Assembly: GCF_003012815.1 (NCBI RefSeq) | Contig: NZ_PXYJ01000001.1 | Location: forward strand, 372,001-436,000 | Source of the DNA: Allosphingosinicella vermicomposti | GTDB taxonomy: Bacteria > Pseudomonadota > Alphaproteobacteria > Sphingomonadales > Sphingomonadaceae | Direction: 5' to 3' | DNA: 64,000 bases | Shown: piece by piece, positions 11,985 to 63,583 of the stretch | Layout: every line of letters begins with the position of its first letter | How positions within the stretch are numbered: the first letter of the stretch is position 1 | Notes under the pieces: model-generated | The model's input: the letters and a program-made list of their open reading frames with translations, nothing else | What the model was told of the DNA's origin: nothing | Database searches by the model: none | Position numbers and translations under genes: made by a program

Positions 11985-12060
11985 CCGCTAGGGCTGAGCC
12001 TGTCGAAGCCCGTGTGCATCGAACCCTTCACACGCCGTTCGACAAGCTCAGGGCTAGCGG
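11985..12060. repeat. Family A palindrome (GCTGAGCCTGTCGAAG)
   Basis: The left arm CCGCTAGGGCTGAGCCTGTC.. (11985-12008) and right arm ..GACAAGCTCAGGGCTAGCGG (12037-12060) form a long imperfect hairpin. The same core recurs at 24975-25050, in the 50.7-50.9 kb cluster, at 55973-56006, 56299-56332, 61927-62100 and 63432-63460. Together with the next repeat it fills the 372-base gap between the S24 gene and the 60-residue gene. I see no other gene in that gap. Confidence 0.85.
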
Positions 12061-24959: not shown

Positions 24960-24974
24960 CGCCGTTCCCCTCTA

Positions 24975-25050
24975 CCGTTCAGCCTGAGCCTGTCGAAGGC
25001 CTGCCCTTCTTGAGAGTAAGGCAGGGCTTCGACAGGCTCAGCCCGAACGG
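24975..25050. repeat. Family A palindrome downstream of chemoreceptor
   Basis: CCGTTCAGCCTGAGCCTGTC.. (from 24975) and ..GACAGGCTCAGCCCGAACGG (to 25050) are the two arms. The arms closely match the inverted pair that flanks the GIY-YIG gene at 56 kb, including the GGCCTGCCCTT extension. Confidence 0.85.
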
Positions 25051-25092
25051 ATTGGGGTTTTCCTGGACCTTATCCCGCCCTATCGCCCCCGC

Positions 25093-50721: not shown

Positions 50722-50917
50722 GTGCTGGCTGGAACGTCCTTCGATAGGCTCAGGACTAGCGGGGTTGGTGGGGCCTTGGGCCTCGGTCTTGTAATGCGGT
50801 GCCCTTCCTGCCGCTAGGGCTGAGCTTGTCGAAGCCCGTGTGCATCGTTCGGGCGTGGGATTGCGAGCCGTGCTGGCTGGAACGTCCTTCGACAGGCTCA
50901 GGACTAGCGGGTTGGGG
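50722..50917. repeat. Cluster of three family A palindromes with a direct duplication
   Basis: A family A half-unit at 50733-50762, a unit at 50811-50838 in the opposite sense, and a third at 50881-50910 fill the gap 50680-50944. The first and third are embedded in a longer direct repeat (GTGCTGGCTGGAACGTCCTT plus the following 25 bases at 50722 and 50870), which indicates local duplication. I see no gene here. Confidence 0.8.
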
Positions 50918-54536: not shown

Positions 54537-54779
54537 ATGTCGCGAACTACATCTTTCGTCCTCGGAGATCATTTTGAAAGTTTTATCGGCGAGCAGTTGA
54601 TGCAAGGCCGCTATGGCAATGCGAGCGAGGTCGTGCGGGCAGGGCTCCGCCTCTTGGAGGAAAAGGAGGCCGAGTTTGCCCGCCTTCGCGCAGCCCTGAT
54701 CGCAGGTGAGGAAAGTGGCGCAGCAAAGCCGCTGTCGATCGACGCGATGAAGCGGAAAGGCCGCATGGCGAGTGCGTAA
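54537..54779 (+). CDS. parD: ParD-like antitoxin
   Basis: An 80-residue type II antitoxin with an N-terminal ribbon-helix-helix (FVLGDHFESFIGEQLMQGRY, YGNASEVVRAGLRLLEEKE) and a C-terminal tail that would wrap ParE. The sequence GTACTATATTTTAGCAC lies just upstream (54507-54523); it is strongly A/T-rich and palindromic in part, and is a likely promoter-operator for autorepression. It overlaps parE by eight bases. It was probably acquired together with parE. Confidence 0.93.
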   Translation: MSRTTSFVLGDHFESFIGEQLMQGRYGNASEVVRAGLRLLEEKEAEFARLRAALIAGEESGAAKPLSIDAMKRKGRMASA

Positions 54780-55065
54780 TCTGTTGATCCGGCCGCTGGC
54801 AGAAGCCGATTTGATCGGCATCTGGCGGTATACGGCCGGGCAATGGGGCGAGGCGCAGGCCGACACCTATCTCGACGAGATTGATGCTATCCTTCAACAC
54901 ATCAAGAGCAACCCGCTCATCGGCAGCGATTGTGGCGATGTGCGCCCTGGATACAGGAAGGCGGCAGCGGGCAGCCATCGGATCTTTTATCGATGTGACG
55001 CGGAGACTGTCGAGGTTGTCCGCATCCTACATGCGCGGATGGACGTCGACGGGCAAATACCCTGA
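54772..55065 (+). CDS. parE: ParE-like toxin
   Basis: A 97-residue RelE/ParE-fold toxin; ParE proteins poison DNA gyrase. Signatures are LAEADLIGIWRYTAGQWGEA at the N terminus, RPGYRKAAAGSHRIFYR in the core and VVRILHARMD near the C terminus. The GTG start at 54772 lies inside the end of parD, so the toxin is made only with the antitoxin. Its last base directly abuts the 3' end of the convergent era gene, leaving no room for a terminator. Confidence 0.93.
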   Translation: MRNLLIRPLAEADLIGIWRYTAGQWGEAQADTYLDEIDAILQHIKSNPLIGSDCGDVRPGYRKAAAGSHRIFYRCDAETVEVVRILHARMDVDGQIP

Positions 55066-55959
55066 TCACTCCACCCAGTCGAGGCCGATTTCGCGGTAGA
55101 GGCCGCGGTCTTCTTCCCATTTGGGATTTACCTTGACGTGCAGGAAAAGGTGGACCTTGCGGCCGAGAAGCTCGGAGAGCTCCTTGCGGGCCGCTTCGCC
55201 GATCTCCTTGATGCGTGCGCCGCGTTTGCCGAGGACAATGGCCTTCTGACTGTCGCGGCCGACGAGGATTTGCTGGTGGATGGCGACCGAGCCGTCCTTG
55301 CGCTCTTCATATTTCTCCGTCTCGATCGCGCTTTCATAGGGCAGTTCGGCGTGGAGCTGGTGGTAGAGCTGTTCGCGGGTGACTTCGGCGGCGAGCATGC
55401 GGTCGGTGGCGTCGGAAACCTGGTCTTCCGGAAAGTGCCAGGGGCCTTCGGGGACGCGGGCGGCGAGCGCGGCCTTCAAATCCGCGACGCCATCGCCGGT
55501 GGTGGCGGACACCATGAAGATTTCCTCGAAATCAAGGCGTTCGGAAAATTGGGTGACGAGGGTGAGGAGGTTTTCCTTTGCCGTCACGTCCACCTTGTTG
55601 AGGATCAGGATCTTGGGCTCGCGACGGGCCTTCAAAGTGTCGAGCATTTCTTCGATCCGGCGCGAGAAGCCGGTCTTGGCATCGACGACGAGCGCGATGA
55701 GGTCCGCATCCTGCGCGCCGCCCCAGGCGGCGGCGACCATGGCGCGATCGAGGCGGCGCTTGGGTTCGAAGATGCCGGGCGTGTCCATGAGGAGGATTTG
55801 CGCGCGCTCATGGATCGCGATGCCCATCAGGCTGACCCGCGTCGTTTGCGCCTTTGGGCTGACGATCGCGACCTTCTGGCCGACCAGGGCGTTTACGAGG
55901 GTGGATTTGCCCGCATTCGGGGCGCCCACGACGGCGACGAGGCCGCAATGTTCAGTCAT
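55066..55959 (-). CDS. era: GTPase Era
   Basis: A 297-residue essential GTPase for 30S ribosome maturation. G1 GAPNAGKST, G3 DTPGIF, G4 NKVD, and the C-terminal KH domain that binds 16S rRNA (VGRDSQKAIVLGKRGARIKE). Its ATG overlaps the stop of the GIY-YIG gene (ATGA), a coupling normally seen with rnc. It is the last gene of lepB-rnc-(GIY-YIG)-era and abuts parE tail to tail. Confidence 0.97.
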   Translation of the reverse strand: MTEHCGLVAVVGAPNAGKSTLVNALVGQKVAIVSPKAQTTRVSLMGIAIHERAQILLMDTPGIFEPKRRLDRAMVAAAWGGAQDADLIALVVDAKTGFSRRIEEMLDTLKARREPKILILNKVDVTAKENLLTLVTQFSERLDFEEIFMVSATTGDGVADLKAALAARVPEGPWHFPEDQVSDATDRMLAAEVTREQLYHQLHAELPYESAIETEKYEERKDGSVAIHQQILVGRDSQKAIVLGKRGARIKEIGEAARKELSELLGRKVHLFLHVKVNPKWEEDRGLYREIGLDWVE

Positions 55960-56279
55960 TTTACGTAAAACTCCGTTCGGCCTGAGCTTGTCGAAGGCCT
56001 GTCCTTACTTTTTGCGAGCCGGCTGATTTCTTCGAAATCGCCCCGAATTAACGCGAGCTTCTTGGCTCTGCTCCCGCCTTTAATTTTGCGTTCTGCGGCC
56101 AAGGCCTCTTCGCGCGAAGGTAAGGTTTCCGACCAGACTAACGTTACTGGAAGGTGGTTTCGCGTGAAGCCGGGGATTTGGCCTTGTTCGTGTTGTGCTA
56201 TGCGTCTTTCGAGATTGTCTGTGTGGCCGATATAGAGTCGGCCTGCGTTGCAGTGGAGCATGTAGGTCCAGAACGTCAC
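55956..56279 (-). CDS. GIY-YIG nuclease (URI-like) embedded in rnc-era operon
   Basis: A 107-residue single-domain GIY-YIG nuclease. TYMLHCNAGRLYIGHTDNLE contains both tyrosines, RRIAQHEQG the catalytic Arg, and SREEALAAERKIKG the metal-binding Glu. All the usual catalytic residues are present, so it should be active. The last 16 codons (DRPSTSSGRTEF) are translated from the left copy of an inverted repeat (55973-56006), and the right copy lies 20 bases upstream of the start. The composition is less GC-rich than rnc and era. It would be co-translated with era. Function is unknown; a mobility role is inferred. Confidence 0.88.
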   Translation of the reverse strand: MTFWTYMLHCNAGRLYIGHTDNLERRIAQHEQGQIPGFTRNHLPVTLVWSETLPSREEALAAERKIKGGSRAKKLALIRGDFEEISRLAKSKDRPSTSSGRTEFYVK

Positions 56280-56332
56280 GCTGGATGATGCGAAGAGGAA
56301 GGGCAGGCCTTCGACAGGCTCAGGCCGAACGG
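55973..56332. mobile_element. GIY-YIG gene with 34-bp inverted family A repeats
   Basis: The left arm 55973-56006 begins CCGTTCGGCCTGAGCTTGTC and the right arm 56299-56332 is its reverse complement with 32 of 34 bases matching. The arms share the core of the scattered family A repeat. The 360-bp unit contains nearly the whole nuclease gene and interrupts the usual rnc-era junction. No transposase is present. The layout suggests a nuclease-linked mobile palindrome, as RAYT transposases are linked to REP sequences. Confidence 0.65.
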
Positions 56333-56364
56333 TGCCGGTGAAGCCGAGGTGGGCTTTTTAGGCG

Positions 56365-57027
56365 TCACGAGACCTTCTCCAATAATGCCTTCGCCGCGGC
56401 GGTTTCGGCTTCTTGTTTGCTGGTGCCTTCGGCCTGGGCTTCGCCGACGCCTTGAATCGCGACTTCGACGATGAATTTGGGGGCGTGGTGGGCGCCGGTG
56501 CGGCCTTTGAGTTCGTAGGCGGGCGGGCGTTTGTTGTTGGCGGCGGCCCATTCCTGAAGGGCGGATTTGGGGTGCCTTGGCGCCTTGCTATGCTTTTCGG
56601 CGCGGTTGCCCCAGGACTTGCGGACGAAGGCGGTGGCGGCTTCGAGGCCGCCTTCCAGATAAAGGGCACCGATCAGGGCTTCGACAATATCGCCAAGGAC
56701 GTTGTCGCTTTCGGTCGCGCCGTCTTCGCGGGCCTGTTTGCCCAGAATCGCCTGCGCGCCGACGCCGAGGTCGCGGGCAACGTCGGCGCAGGTTTCGCGG
56801 GAGACGAGCACGTTGAAACGGCGGGAGAGCACGCCTTCGGGTTCGTTCGGGAAGAGGTCGAATATCCAGCTGGCGACGATCAGGCCGAGAACGCGATCGC
56901 CGAGGAATTCGAGGCGTTCATAATGATCGCCGCCCCGGCTGGCGTGGGTGAGGGCGCGGATGAAGAGAGCGGGGTCTTTCGGCTTGTGGCCGGTGACCTT
57001 TTCGACCCAGGCGGGAACGGGGCTCAT
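56365..57027 (-). CDS. rnc: Ribonuclease III
   Basis: A 220-residue double-strand-specific RNase that processes rRNA precursors. The signature ERLEFLGDRVLGLIV (about 37-51) and the second acidic cluster DNVLGDIVEALIGALYLEGG (about 108-127) form the active site. A C-terminal double-stranded RNA-binding domain follows (HPKSALQEWAAANNKRPPAY onward). Start ATG at 57027 overlaps the lepB stop (ATGA), so the longer frame is rejected. Confidence 0.97.
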   Translation of the reverse strand: MSPVPAWVEKVTGHKPKDPALFIRALTHASRGGDHYERLEFLGDRVLGLIVASWIFDLFPNEPEGVLSRRFNVLVSRETCADVARDLGVGAQAILGKQAREDGATESDNVLGDIVEALIGALYLEGGLEAATAFVRKSWGNRAEKHSKAPRHPKSALQEWAAANNKRPPAYELKGRTGAHHAPKFIVEVAIQGVGEAQAEGTSKQEAETAAAKALLEKVS

Positions 57028-57872
57028 CAATAGGTCTCGCCGATCCGGTCCCAACGCGTAGCGGAGACCCAAGTCCAGGGCTTCAACCATTCCGCCGAGC
57101 CGTCGGTCGAGAAGAAGGTGATGAGACCGCGCCCGATGAGGTTTTCGGCGGGCAGCATGCCGACGCCGCCAGACGAAACGGGAAAGCGGCTGTCGAGGCT
57201 GTCGTCGCGATTGTCGCCCATCACGAAATAATGATCTTCGGGCACCATGAAGATTTCGGTGTCGTCGGCGCGGGTGATATCGGCCTGATCGATCACGTCA
57301 TAGCTTTTGCCGCCGGGCAGGGTTTCGCGATAGCGGGGATAAGCGCACAGCCTTTCGCCATTCGCGCCCGCCAGCTCGCGCTTGTTCGCGGGATTGACGA
57401 AGCGGCAAGGACTGTTGGGCGAAACCGGCATGGGAAAATCCGCGATGCGCGTGCGCTGTACGGCTTCGCCATTCAGATAAAGGGTGCCGCCGCGCACCTG
57501 CACCATATCGCCGGGAAGGCCGATCAGCCGTTTCACATAATCCTGATCGCTGCCCGGATAACGGAAGACAACGACATCGCCGCGCTCCGCCGCGTCCGCG
57601 ATTATCCGGCCGTCGAAGGAGGCGAGGCCGAAGGGAAAGGAGTAACGCGAATAGCCATAGGGCCATTTGGCGACGAACAGATAATCGCCGATCATCATGC
57701 GCGGCAGCATCGAACCCGACGGGATGCTGAACGCGGCGATGAACAGGCTGCGCAACAGCACGGCGGCAAGGAATAGGACGAGCAGGAAACGCGTGGTTTC
57801 CGCAAGGCCATCCTTTTTCCTGATCGCCGGGGGCCTGGCCGCCCCGGTGCCCGCAATGTCGCCGCTGTCCAT
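57027..57872 (-). CDS. lepB: Signal peptidase I LepB
   Basis: A 281-residue inner-membrane protease that cleaves signal peptides of exported proteins. It has one N-terminal helix (about 27-48), the catalytic Ser in IPSGSMLPRMMIGD, the catalytic Lys in DYVKRLIGLPGDMVQV, and the signature GDNRDDSLDSRFP. It is the first gene of lepB-rnc-GIY-YIG-era. The 106-base gap upstream is shared with the divergent metallo-hydrolase. Confidence 0.97.
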   Translation of the reverse strand: MDSGDIAGTGAARPPAIRKKDGLAETTRFLLVLFLAAVLLRSLFIAAFSIPSGSMLPRMMIGDYLFVAKWPYGYSRYSFPFGLASFDGRIIADAAERGDVVVFRYPGSDQDYVKRLIGLPGDMVQVRGGTLYLNGEAVQRTRIADFPMPVSPNSPCRFVNPANKRELAGANGERLCAYPRYRETLPGGKSYDVIDQADITRADDTEIFMVPEDHYFVMGDNRDDSLDSRFPVSSGGVGMLPAENLIGRGLITFFSTDGSAEWLKPWTWVSATRWDRIGETY

Positions 57873-61926: not shown

Positions 61927-62100
61927 CCGTCCTTCGACAGGCTCAGGACTAACGGGTTGGTGGTGGAATGAGCTTTTGTGGGAATCGTGCCCACCACCAC
62001 CGATAGGGCTGAGCTTGTCGAAGCCTGTTCGTCCCGTTCGTTCGCGGAGGCTTCCCGTGGCGCGGGCTGTAGTGTCCTTCGACAAACTCAGGACTAGCGG
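61927..62100. repeat. Cluster of three family A palindromes
   Basis: Units at 61927-61955, 62001-62031 (opposite sense) and 62073-62100. They fill the 320-base gap between the small lipoprotein and the ATPase zeta gene; I see no gene in it. The alternating orientation (right, left, right) is the same as in the 50.7-50.9 kb cluster. Confidence 0.8.
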
Positions 62101-63166: not shown

Positions 63167-63583
63167 TGTCACGATAGGATCGTGTGTGGACATGGGACAT
63201 GATACAGGTCTCGTGCCATATTGTGAGAATAACGATTTTGCGCGCTTCTTATGGTTAACGCTCAAGTAATCTGTTGCTTGGTTGTAAAATTTGCCGACAG
63301 CGTTGGCGCTGGTGAGTGGTCGATAGCTGGCGGTCACCGGCGATTAGGATCTGGTGGCAGGTCAAACGGCTGAAGCCCGCGGGACAGTTTATTAATCCGG
63401 AGCCTGCCGAGGAAGGGCTGGAGGCTTGGTCGGGTTTCGACAGGCTCAGCCCTGGCGGGGTTGGATAAGGGCGCCCTTCTAATCTCGCCATCATTCTACA
63501 TTGCAGCATTAGCGCGCTGTCTTCCCTGGTGCGTATGGAGGATTGGTCACCCCAGTCTTGGATTTAGGGGCCTGGGATGCCAC
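63167..63583. other. Gene-free region upstream of MBL gene
   Basis: No coding frame is supported. It contains a family A unit at 63432-63460, a GGTTAACGC motif (63252-63260) that could be a CtrA half-site, and otherwise moderately AT-rich DNA (63180-63300) that may hold a promoter. Short frames here end in repeat-derived peptides. Confidence 0.4.

Follow-up and report, generated by a model that had tools for sequence, protein, structure and literature searches.

A short gene for a GIY-YIG nuclease lies between rnc and era in Allosphingosinicella vermicomposti, enclosed by two inverted copies of a dispersed palindrome (REP). The locus raises the question whether this is an ordinary operon gene with repeats beside it, or whether nuclease and REPs belong together. 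A sequence-only reading of the window (the whole 64,000-nucleotide stretch of DNA that was analysed) had proposed the latter: an undescribed minimal mobile system in which the nuclease drives the spread of these palindromes, termed family A there and type A here.

The nuclease gene and its palindromes

The rnc-era junction contains the following features:

55066..55959, minus strand: era (GTPase)
55956..56279, minus strand: GIY-YIG nuclease gene, 107 aa, GTG start
55960..56364, no strand: 405-bp block from the rnc stop to the era start
55973..56006, plus strand: type-A REP, downstream (C-terminal) copy
56299..56332, minus strand: type-A REP, upstream copy, opposite in orientation to the downstream one
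56365..57090, minus strand: rnc (RNase III)

The 107-residue protein matches the Pfam GIY-YIG profile (E=1.7e-16), in agreement with the sequence-only reading; NCBIfam profiles gave no match up to E 0.01. No further Pfam domain was found in the 107 residues, unlike GIY-YIG homing endonucleases, which carry an extra DNA-binding NUMOD domain and often reside in an intron or intein. Y6, Y16, R26 and E63 are invariant in an alignment of 12 subfamily members. We take these to be the catalytic residues of the GIY-YIG superfamily; the earlier claim that all catalytic residues are present holds for their conservation and presumably for their role. By sequence, the nearest solved structures are the UPF0213 proteins 1ZG2 and 1YWL (E 1.7e-6 and 9.4e-4), both entered as "hypothetical", followed by Slx1 (E 2.8e-3), a eukaryotic enzyme that works with Slx4 and is described in its entry titles as a nuclease for branched DNA. 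Fold comparison ranks them in the same order, with TM scores of about 0.5-0.6. The protein fits the class of UPF0213-like GIY-YIG proteins, a stand-alone domain of about 90 residues, which we take to be COG2827.

The C-terminal end of the protein is less defined. Mean pLDDT in the AlphaFold model is 84-97 in blocks up to residue 90 and below 50 for residues 95-107. The last dozen or so residues are the translation of the downstream REP and the bases after it; the repeat reads as ...RPSTSSGRTE close to the C terminus. At 55956-55959 the gene's stop codon and the start codon of era share the letters ATGA. The left repeat is indeed translated and runs into era, as had been noticed from the letters. 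In 15 of the 29 relatives whose junction was read, rnc and era themselves overlap by 4 bp. Just past era, at 54537-55065, lies a ParD/ParE-type toxin-antitoxin pair.

The two REPs match at 32 of 34 positions, the figure given in the sequence-only reading, and a repeat search lengthens both arms to 43 nt with 88% complementarity. Besides the copies at the gene, the exact core CTGAGCNTGTCGAAG occurs seven times in the window, again as first counted; at up to three mismatches there are 19 cores, including the gene's two and some that are probably chance matches. In the whole genome (2.5 Mb, 6 contigs), 220 exact cores are present, compared with 0 for the reversed pattern. Among the 100 genomic cores listed, many lie in inverted pairs separated by some tens of bases (REPINs), and within the window five plus/minus pairs are spaced 37-68 bp apart. 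Gene-free copies in the window include:

11994..12051, no strand: REPIN, type-A core pair 43 bp apart
24975..25050, no strand: REPIN, inverted type-A pair without a gene, forming one long hairpin
50739..50901, no strand: three type-A cores in alternating orientation
61932..62091, no strand: three type-A cores in alternating orientation
63398..63449, no strand: degenerate type-A pair (3 and 1 mismatches)

The inner flanks of the REPIN at 24975..25050 resemble those of the gene-bearing unit. Its DNA (24973-25054) folds strongly, with a z score of -9.8; a lone REP folds weakly. Of the 52 window ORFs of at least 90 aa, two are flanked at each end by a core no more than about 150 bp away: the GIY-YIG gene and era, the latter only by way of one 3-mismatch match.

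The repeat has fixed ends. Taking one site from each site cluster (see below), we aligned 39 upstream and 47 downstream sites on the core; conservation started abruptly at the same base, at CCGTTCG, and stopped just past the stem. The stem covaries: among 251 distinct type-A copies, offsets 2 and 3, counted outward from the core, are paired at frequencies of 0.95 and 0.97, against 0.53 and 0.45 after shuffling, mainly as C-G, G-C and T-A. In a second palindrome, type B (CCCGAGCGAAGTCGAGG), covariation is clearest at base 3 (94% against 55% shuffled).

Six GIY-YIG matches were found in the genome, which we assign by reading to UvrC (L006), a COG2827-like protein (L004), another (L005) and three members of the window subfamily. 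REPs enclose all three subfamily genes. They are of type A around the window gene and L003, the nearest upstream core of L003 being oriented the same way as the downstream core; L001 is flanked by type B, with a degenerate upstream copy.

Recurrence of the unit and its sites

We searched 197 relatives with the window protein. The 79 loci assigned to its subfamily (E ≤5.9e-19) are separated by a gap from COG2827-like proteins (≥1.8e-15). Flanks were scored for type-A or type-B cores with up to three mismatches: 67 loci have cores at both ends and 5 at neither; 1 has a core solely upstream and 6 solely downstream. A second set was drawn from named genomes as the best 80 of at least 533 relatives, from which nine duplicates were removed; its 71 loci divide into 61 with cores on both sides, 4 downstream, 1 upstream and 5 none. 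Pooled, 128 of 150 loci are doubly flanked, 2 are flanked upstream, 10 downstream and 10 on neither side, so that at 22 loci at least one A/B REP is missing. In background windows of 170 bp, A/B cores occur in 137 of 2814. The prediction that most copies would be bounded by inverted family A palindromes is supported, with type B counted alongside type A. Both REPs are of the same type in 123 of the 128 doubly flanked loci; the nearest upstream core is in plus orientation in 111 and the nearest downstream core in minus orientation in 117. In 88 loci the upstream core starts 36-46 bp ahead of the start codon.

Controls outside the subfamily were negative. Among other GIY-YIG genes in 15 REP-bearing genomes without a subfamily member (30 of 40 matches, those whose loci were read), 0 of 30 have an A/B core on both sides, and the same is true for 0 of 30 Y1_Tnp loci from 30 genomes; the two control sets together contain four lone 3-mismatch matches. 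In a test for any inverted repeat, 4 of 14 un- or half-flanked subfamily loci score ≥16 and 3 score 13.5-15, with variants including CCGTTCGTCCTGAGGAG, and 7 show nothing. Most named subfamily loci are from Sphingomonadales. Outside this order, judging by record titles, a Burkholderiales locus (L207) and a Chloroflexi locus (L249) are flanked on both sides, two Thiobacillus loci (L243, L254) have a core downstream only, and two gammaproteobacterial loci (L246, L250) have no A/B core; these records are mostly MAGs, in which contamination is possible. The gene with its inverted REPs is a recurrent unit found at many loci, not a one-off.

Clustering of the flanks of the 150 loci gave 59 clusters on either side. 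Singletons number at most 50 upstream and 48 downstream, upper bounds because blastn misses very diverged orthologous sites. The largest clusters are at trmJ (31, with the GIY-YIG gene upstream of trmJ), dnaG (21), rnc-era (18, spread over several genera) and tyrS (8), followed by a JAB-domain gene (7), rluD (5), another site (3) and a few pairs; names other than rnc and era come from reading of translations. The nine copies from the window's own genus, in nine genomes, encode proteins 64-85% identical (27 of 36 pairs ≥72%) and have almost no flanking ORF in common: L020 and L024 share one downstream gene, and L018 and L033 share one gene on opposite sides.

The 31 GIY-YIG genes at trmJ lie directly upstream of a gene for a TrmJ-like RNA methyltransferase (for example L022, L023, L025, L026, L028 and L041-L043), and many share one frame with it, with the REP-derived peptide as a linker. 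A few GIY-YIG genes elsewhere join RluD-, JAB- or alanine-racemase-like genes.

Empty counterparts exist at two sites. For rnc-era, 60 genomes were searched and 30 junctions read; the GIY-YIG gene is present in the window's own genome only and absent from 29 of 29 other relatives. For tyrS, within the genus of the Sphingopyxis terrae stretch (G272), 80 genomes matched and the best 30 were read, giving 8 filled sites, 19 empty sites and 3 that were other or ended early, a selection whose filled fraction is no frequency. Empty tyrS sites contain a conserved stretch of 59-75 bp. Between the filled site of G272 and the empty site of G273, flank identity is 96%, which, with the 59 clusters, bears out the expectation of different loci and of an empty-site orthologue in a close relative. 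No clean insertion boundary or target duplication was found between filled and empty sites, and filled sites have further unmatched bases outside the REPs.

Other palindromes occupy the same two places. The rnc-era junctions of G008, G004, G024 and G021 (L147, L154, L162 and L170) carry a different palindromic insert of 133-151 bp, of the CTCCCCCTCGATGGGGGAGG type; palindromic elements may settle preferentially at this junction. At tyrS, L271 (G258) and L272 (G260), from two species, contain another palindrome, of the GTCACCCCGGACTTGATCCGGGGTCCC type, and no GIY-YIG unit. We also considered the nearest relative, G008, as a guide to empty REPIN sites across the window and set it aside; its DNA is 72-89% identical and synteny is broken.

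A quick tree suggested independent arrivals at rnc-era, which an AU test did not uphold. A single origin was not rejected at rnc-era (p 0.655) or trmJ (p 0.952), and the constrained trees even score higher. Part of the distribution may therefore be old, inherited vertically with losses.

REP type, REP number and the wider nuclease class

The type of gene and the type of REP go together. On a tree of the 79 loci, which has few well-supported forks, the label A requires 7 changes, against 25.9 when shuffled, and the label B 6, against 22.2 (L036 and L050, with one weak match each, were labelled N; L028, with B upstream and A downstream, M). Tests of type match covered 133 of the 150 loci; four loci with mixed flanks were set aside, as were loci lacking an A or B label. 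For 129 of the 133, the closest relative from another genome is flanked by the same type of REP. In the ten genomes that have both REP types, 24 of 24 genes agree, a result reached in 1 of 10000 shuffles. When the nearest relative was forced to come from another site, agreement fell to 114 of 133 (A 97/103, B 17/30; 0.65 expected overall). Because of this drop, much of the gene-REP match is shared descent of the site, and the case for strong cognate specificity is weakened; an independent specificity of gene for REP is suggested.

Gene presence and REP number correlate. The median A+B count is 44.5 in the 56 genomes with the gene and 0 in the 141 without (p=2e-20, kinship ignored); within the family it is 45 and 3 (p=3e-11, kinship again ignored). 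Eight of the 56 have fewer than 10 A+B cores. Conversely, 22 of the 141 gene-less genomes, including G035, G078, G085 and 19 others, have at least 10 cores of one type (18 of type A and 4 others of type B), some of them many (91, 84, 76). Loss of the gene, another enzyme or an assembly gap are candidate explanations for these genomes. In 15 of the 22, other GIY-YIG genes were tested and lack these REPs.

Similar packaging extends to the wider COG2827 class, whose loci were analysed by a motif-free search for inverted repeats joining the two gene ends. In the 15 REP-bearing genomes used above as controls, 14 of 21 non-UvrC GIY-YIG loci score ≥16, compared with 0 of 9 UvrC loci. A phylum-wide draw searched 398 genomes; 110 of the matches listed were analysed and 5 with short flanks left out. 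Of the remaining 105 COG2827 loci, 70 score ≥16; this score is reached by 0 of 101 windows placed about 600 bp farther from the gene and by 4 of 103 pairings of ends from different loci. Most of the repeat arms are REPs of the CGTC type, for example CGTCATTCCCGCGAAGGCGGGAATCCA. In a separate motif test, a GTCA-tagged CGTC hairpin is present on both sides at 51 of 105 loci, with a background of 0.058 per 180 bp. Among genomes with a COG2827 match (≤1e-18), 19 of 96 carry one particular CGTC pattern at least 10 times; among the others the figure is 10 of 302 (p=1e-6, kinship ignored).

In a plasmid collection, 32 records match the window protein, of which four hand-picked ones were read. Azospirillum lipoferum AZO_p3 has the order sufB - [CGTC REP, GIY-YIG, CGTC REP] - sufC, and a Sphingomonas parapaucimobilis record has type-B-like flanks (score 16.5). 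A Legionella lytica record has no repeat (score 9.5). In a Neisseria gonorrhoeae record (L402, NZ_CP119142.1), the GIY-YIG stretch lies among 11 dRS3-like repeats in 3.2 kb; this 2.17-Mb record is filed as a plasmid and looks chromosome-sized. Its sole ORF of at least 60 aa over the match, 71 aa long, begins inside the GIY-YIG domain and is 41% identical to the window protein over 54 aa; it is not known to equal the published Ssn protein. Since the same packaging recurs at many places in many bacteria, such enzymes are promising candidates for the partners that these REPs have so far lacked. It is possible, if a little short of probable, that the orphan CGTC REPs, and the REPs with a CCGTTCG tag, each have COG2827-class nucleases dedicated to them, forming a second, non-HUH route for the origin and dispersal of bacterial REP/REPIN populations in which the gene is an over-long REPIN.

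A proposed role for the nuclease and its rivals

The window unit resembles the RAYT/REPtron arrangement in that the gene is enclosed by inverted REPs belonging to the genome's own REP population. RAYT/TnpAREP genes are flanked by REPs, which are dispersed largely as inverted doublets (PMC3733652, PMC3116915 and PMC8266576). Unlike RAYT, an HUH Y1 protein, the window protein is of the GIY-YIG type, and its REPs end in CCGTTCG where RAYT-associated REPs have GTAG. CGTC REPs, according to Di Nocera et al. (2013, PMC3733652), are hairpins with a tagged unpaired end, occur mainly as head-to-head dimers, are mostly alphaproteobacterial and apparently had no dedicated transposase in that survey. They are like the window REPs in flanking COG2827 relatives of the window nuclease. 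They differ in their unpaired CGTC tag and A-T stem start, where the window REP ends in CCGTTCG and has a C-G-rich stem, and in the loop.

Another parallel comes from Neisseria. Chenal et al. (Nat Commun 2025) reportedly describe Ssn, small GIY-YIG nucleases that cut single-stranded DNA at a site repeated in the genome, with many homologues and a role in transformation. Ssn reportedly shares with the window the pairing of a small GIY-YIG protein with a cognate sequence in many copies, and differs in that its role is ssDNA cutting and transformation in Neisseria. If that is right, enzyme-repeat pairing as such is already known, and the term "undescribed" is doubtful; the pattern is also far wider than family A, since it extends to CGTC REPs and COG2827. 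Among the open-licence titles and abstract openings retrieved from PubMed Central (preprints and non-open papers lie outside this scope), none joins GIY-YIG with REPs, REPINs, dRS3 or CGTC repeats. In the available part of PMC1564403, UPF0213, COG2827, YhbQ and "palindrom" do not occur, nor do RAYT and transposase in that of PMC12306157. Within this open-licence literature we found no published account of a link between these nucleases and REP/REPIN biology or the orphan CGTC REPs, of a gene carried in a REPIN with empty sites elsewhere, or of the CCGTTCG branch in Sphingomonadales.

On balance, we lean towards a UPF0213/COG2827-class nuclease, encoded within an over-long REPIN, that recognises and cuts its own REP, with REPINs and at times the gene unit copied to new sites. 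The nuclease would recognise the REP as a single strand or a hairpin (cruciform) exposed at replication or DNA uptake, and would cut near its CCGTTCG-tagged end. Repair or strand transfer would then copy short REPINs, and occasionally the gene-bearing unit, into intergenic sites; the latter would be a rare long version of a REPIN. The nuclease would work as RAYT/TnpAREP does for GTAG REPs, with a GIY-YIG in place of an HUH active site. As to the mobile family A system first proposed, a recurrent unit at many loci and relatives with empty sites are observed, whereas we infer the recognition, cutting and dispersal of the REP by the nuclease.

A strong rival, compatible with REPIN spreading, is that the nuclease acts on the REP without mobilising it. 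It would control recombination or DNA uptake or remove hairpins, as Ssn is said to do at repeats in Neisseria, and the REPs flanking the gene would be self-targets or serve autoregulation. The similarity of the N. gonorrhoeae ORF (41% over 54 aa) and its place amid the 11 dRS3-like repeats agree with this role, as do the REP-rich genomes without the gene and the single origin with losses that was not rejected at trmJ or rnc-era. By itself it leaves unexplained the joint relocation of gene and REPs and the fixed ends of the repeats, and we consider it the less likely of the two. Hitch-hiking, in which a gene caught by chance between REPs is spread by something else with no functional tie, would draw on the abundance of REPs in these genomes and on the shared sites that account for much of the type match. 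We regard it as improbable given the 128 of 150 flanked loci against 137 of 2814 background windows, the unrelated CGTC palindromes likewise placed around COG2827 genes (70/105 against 0/101 and 4/103) and the 0 of 9 UvrC loci.

The remaining explanations are less probable still. A RAYT/HUH transposase acting in trans would draw on the 49 of 197 relatives with a Y1_Tnp match; the A. vermicomposti genome itself has no match to the Y1_Tnp profile despite its 220 cores, and of the 30 Y1_Tnp loci none is doubly flanked and two have one 3-mismatch match each, so this candidate was rejected as very improbable. That the gene is an ordinary operon member between rnc and era, with the REPs as terminators or spacers, would suit the ATGA overlap with era and the 18 of 150 loci at this junction in several genera. 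The sequence-only reading had named, as the finding that would speak for an operon member and against its mobile system, a gene present there in nearly all relatives; it is found in 0 of 29. This absence contradicts the operon explanation, as do the 59 flank clusters with their 50 (upstream) or 48 (downstream) singletons, and we give it almost no weight.

REPs are among the commonest repeats in bacterial genomes. For GTAG REPs the transposase is known; for CGTC REPs none was found in the 2013 survey (PMC3733652). If small GIY-YIG nucleases are the partners of REPs, the question would come within reach of an inexpensive in-vitro assay. Many uncharacterised genes of the UPF0213 type would then gain a role, and the flanks of each gene would name its likely substrate.
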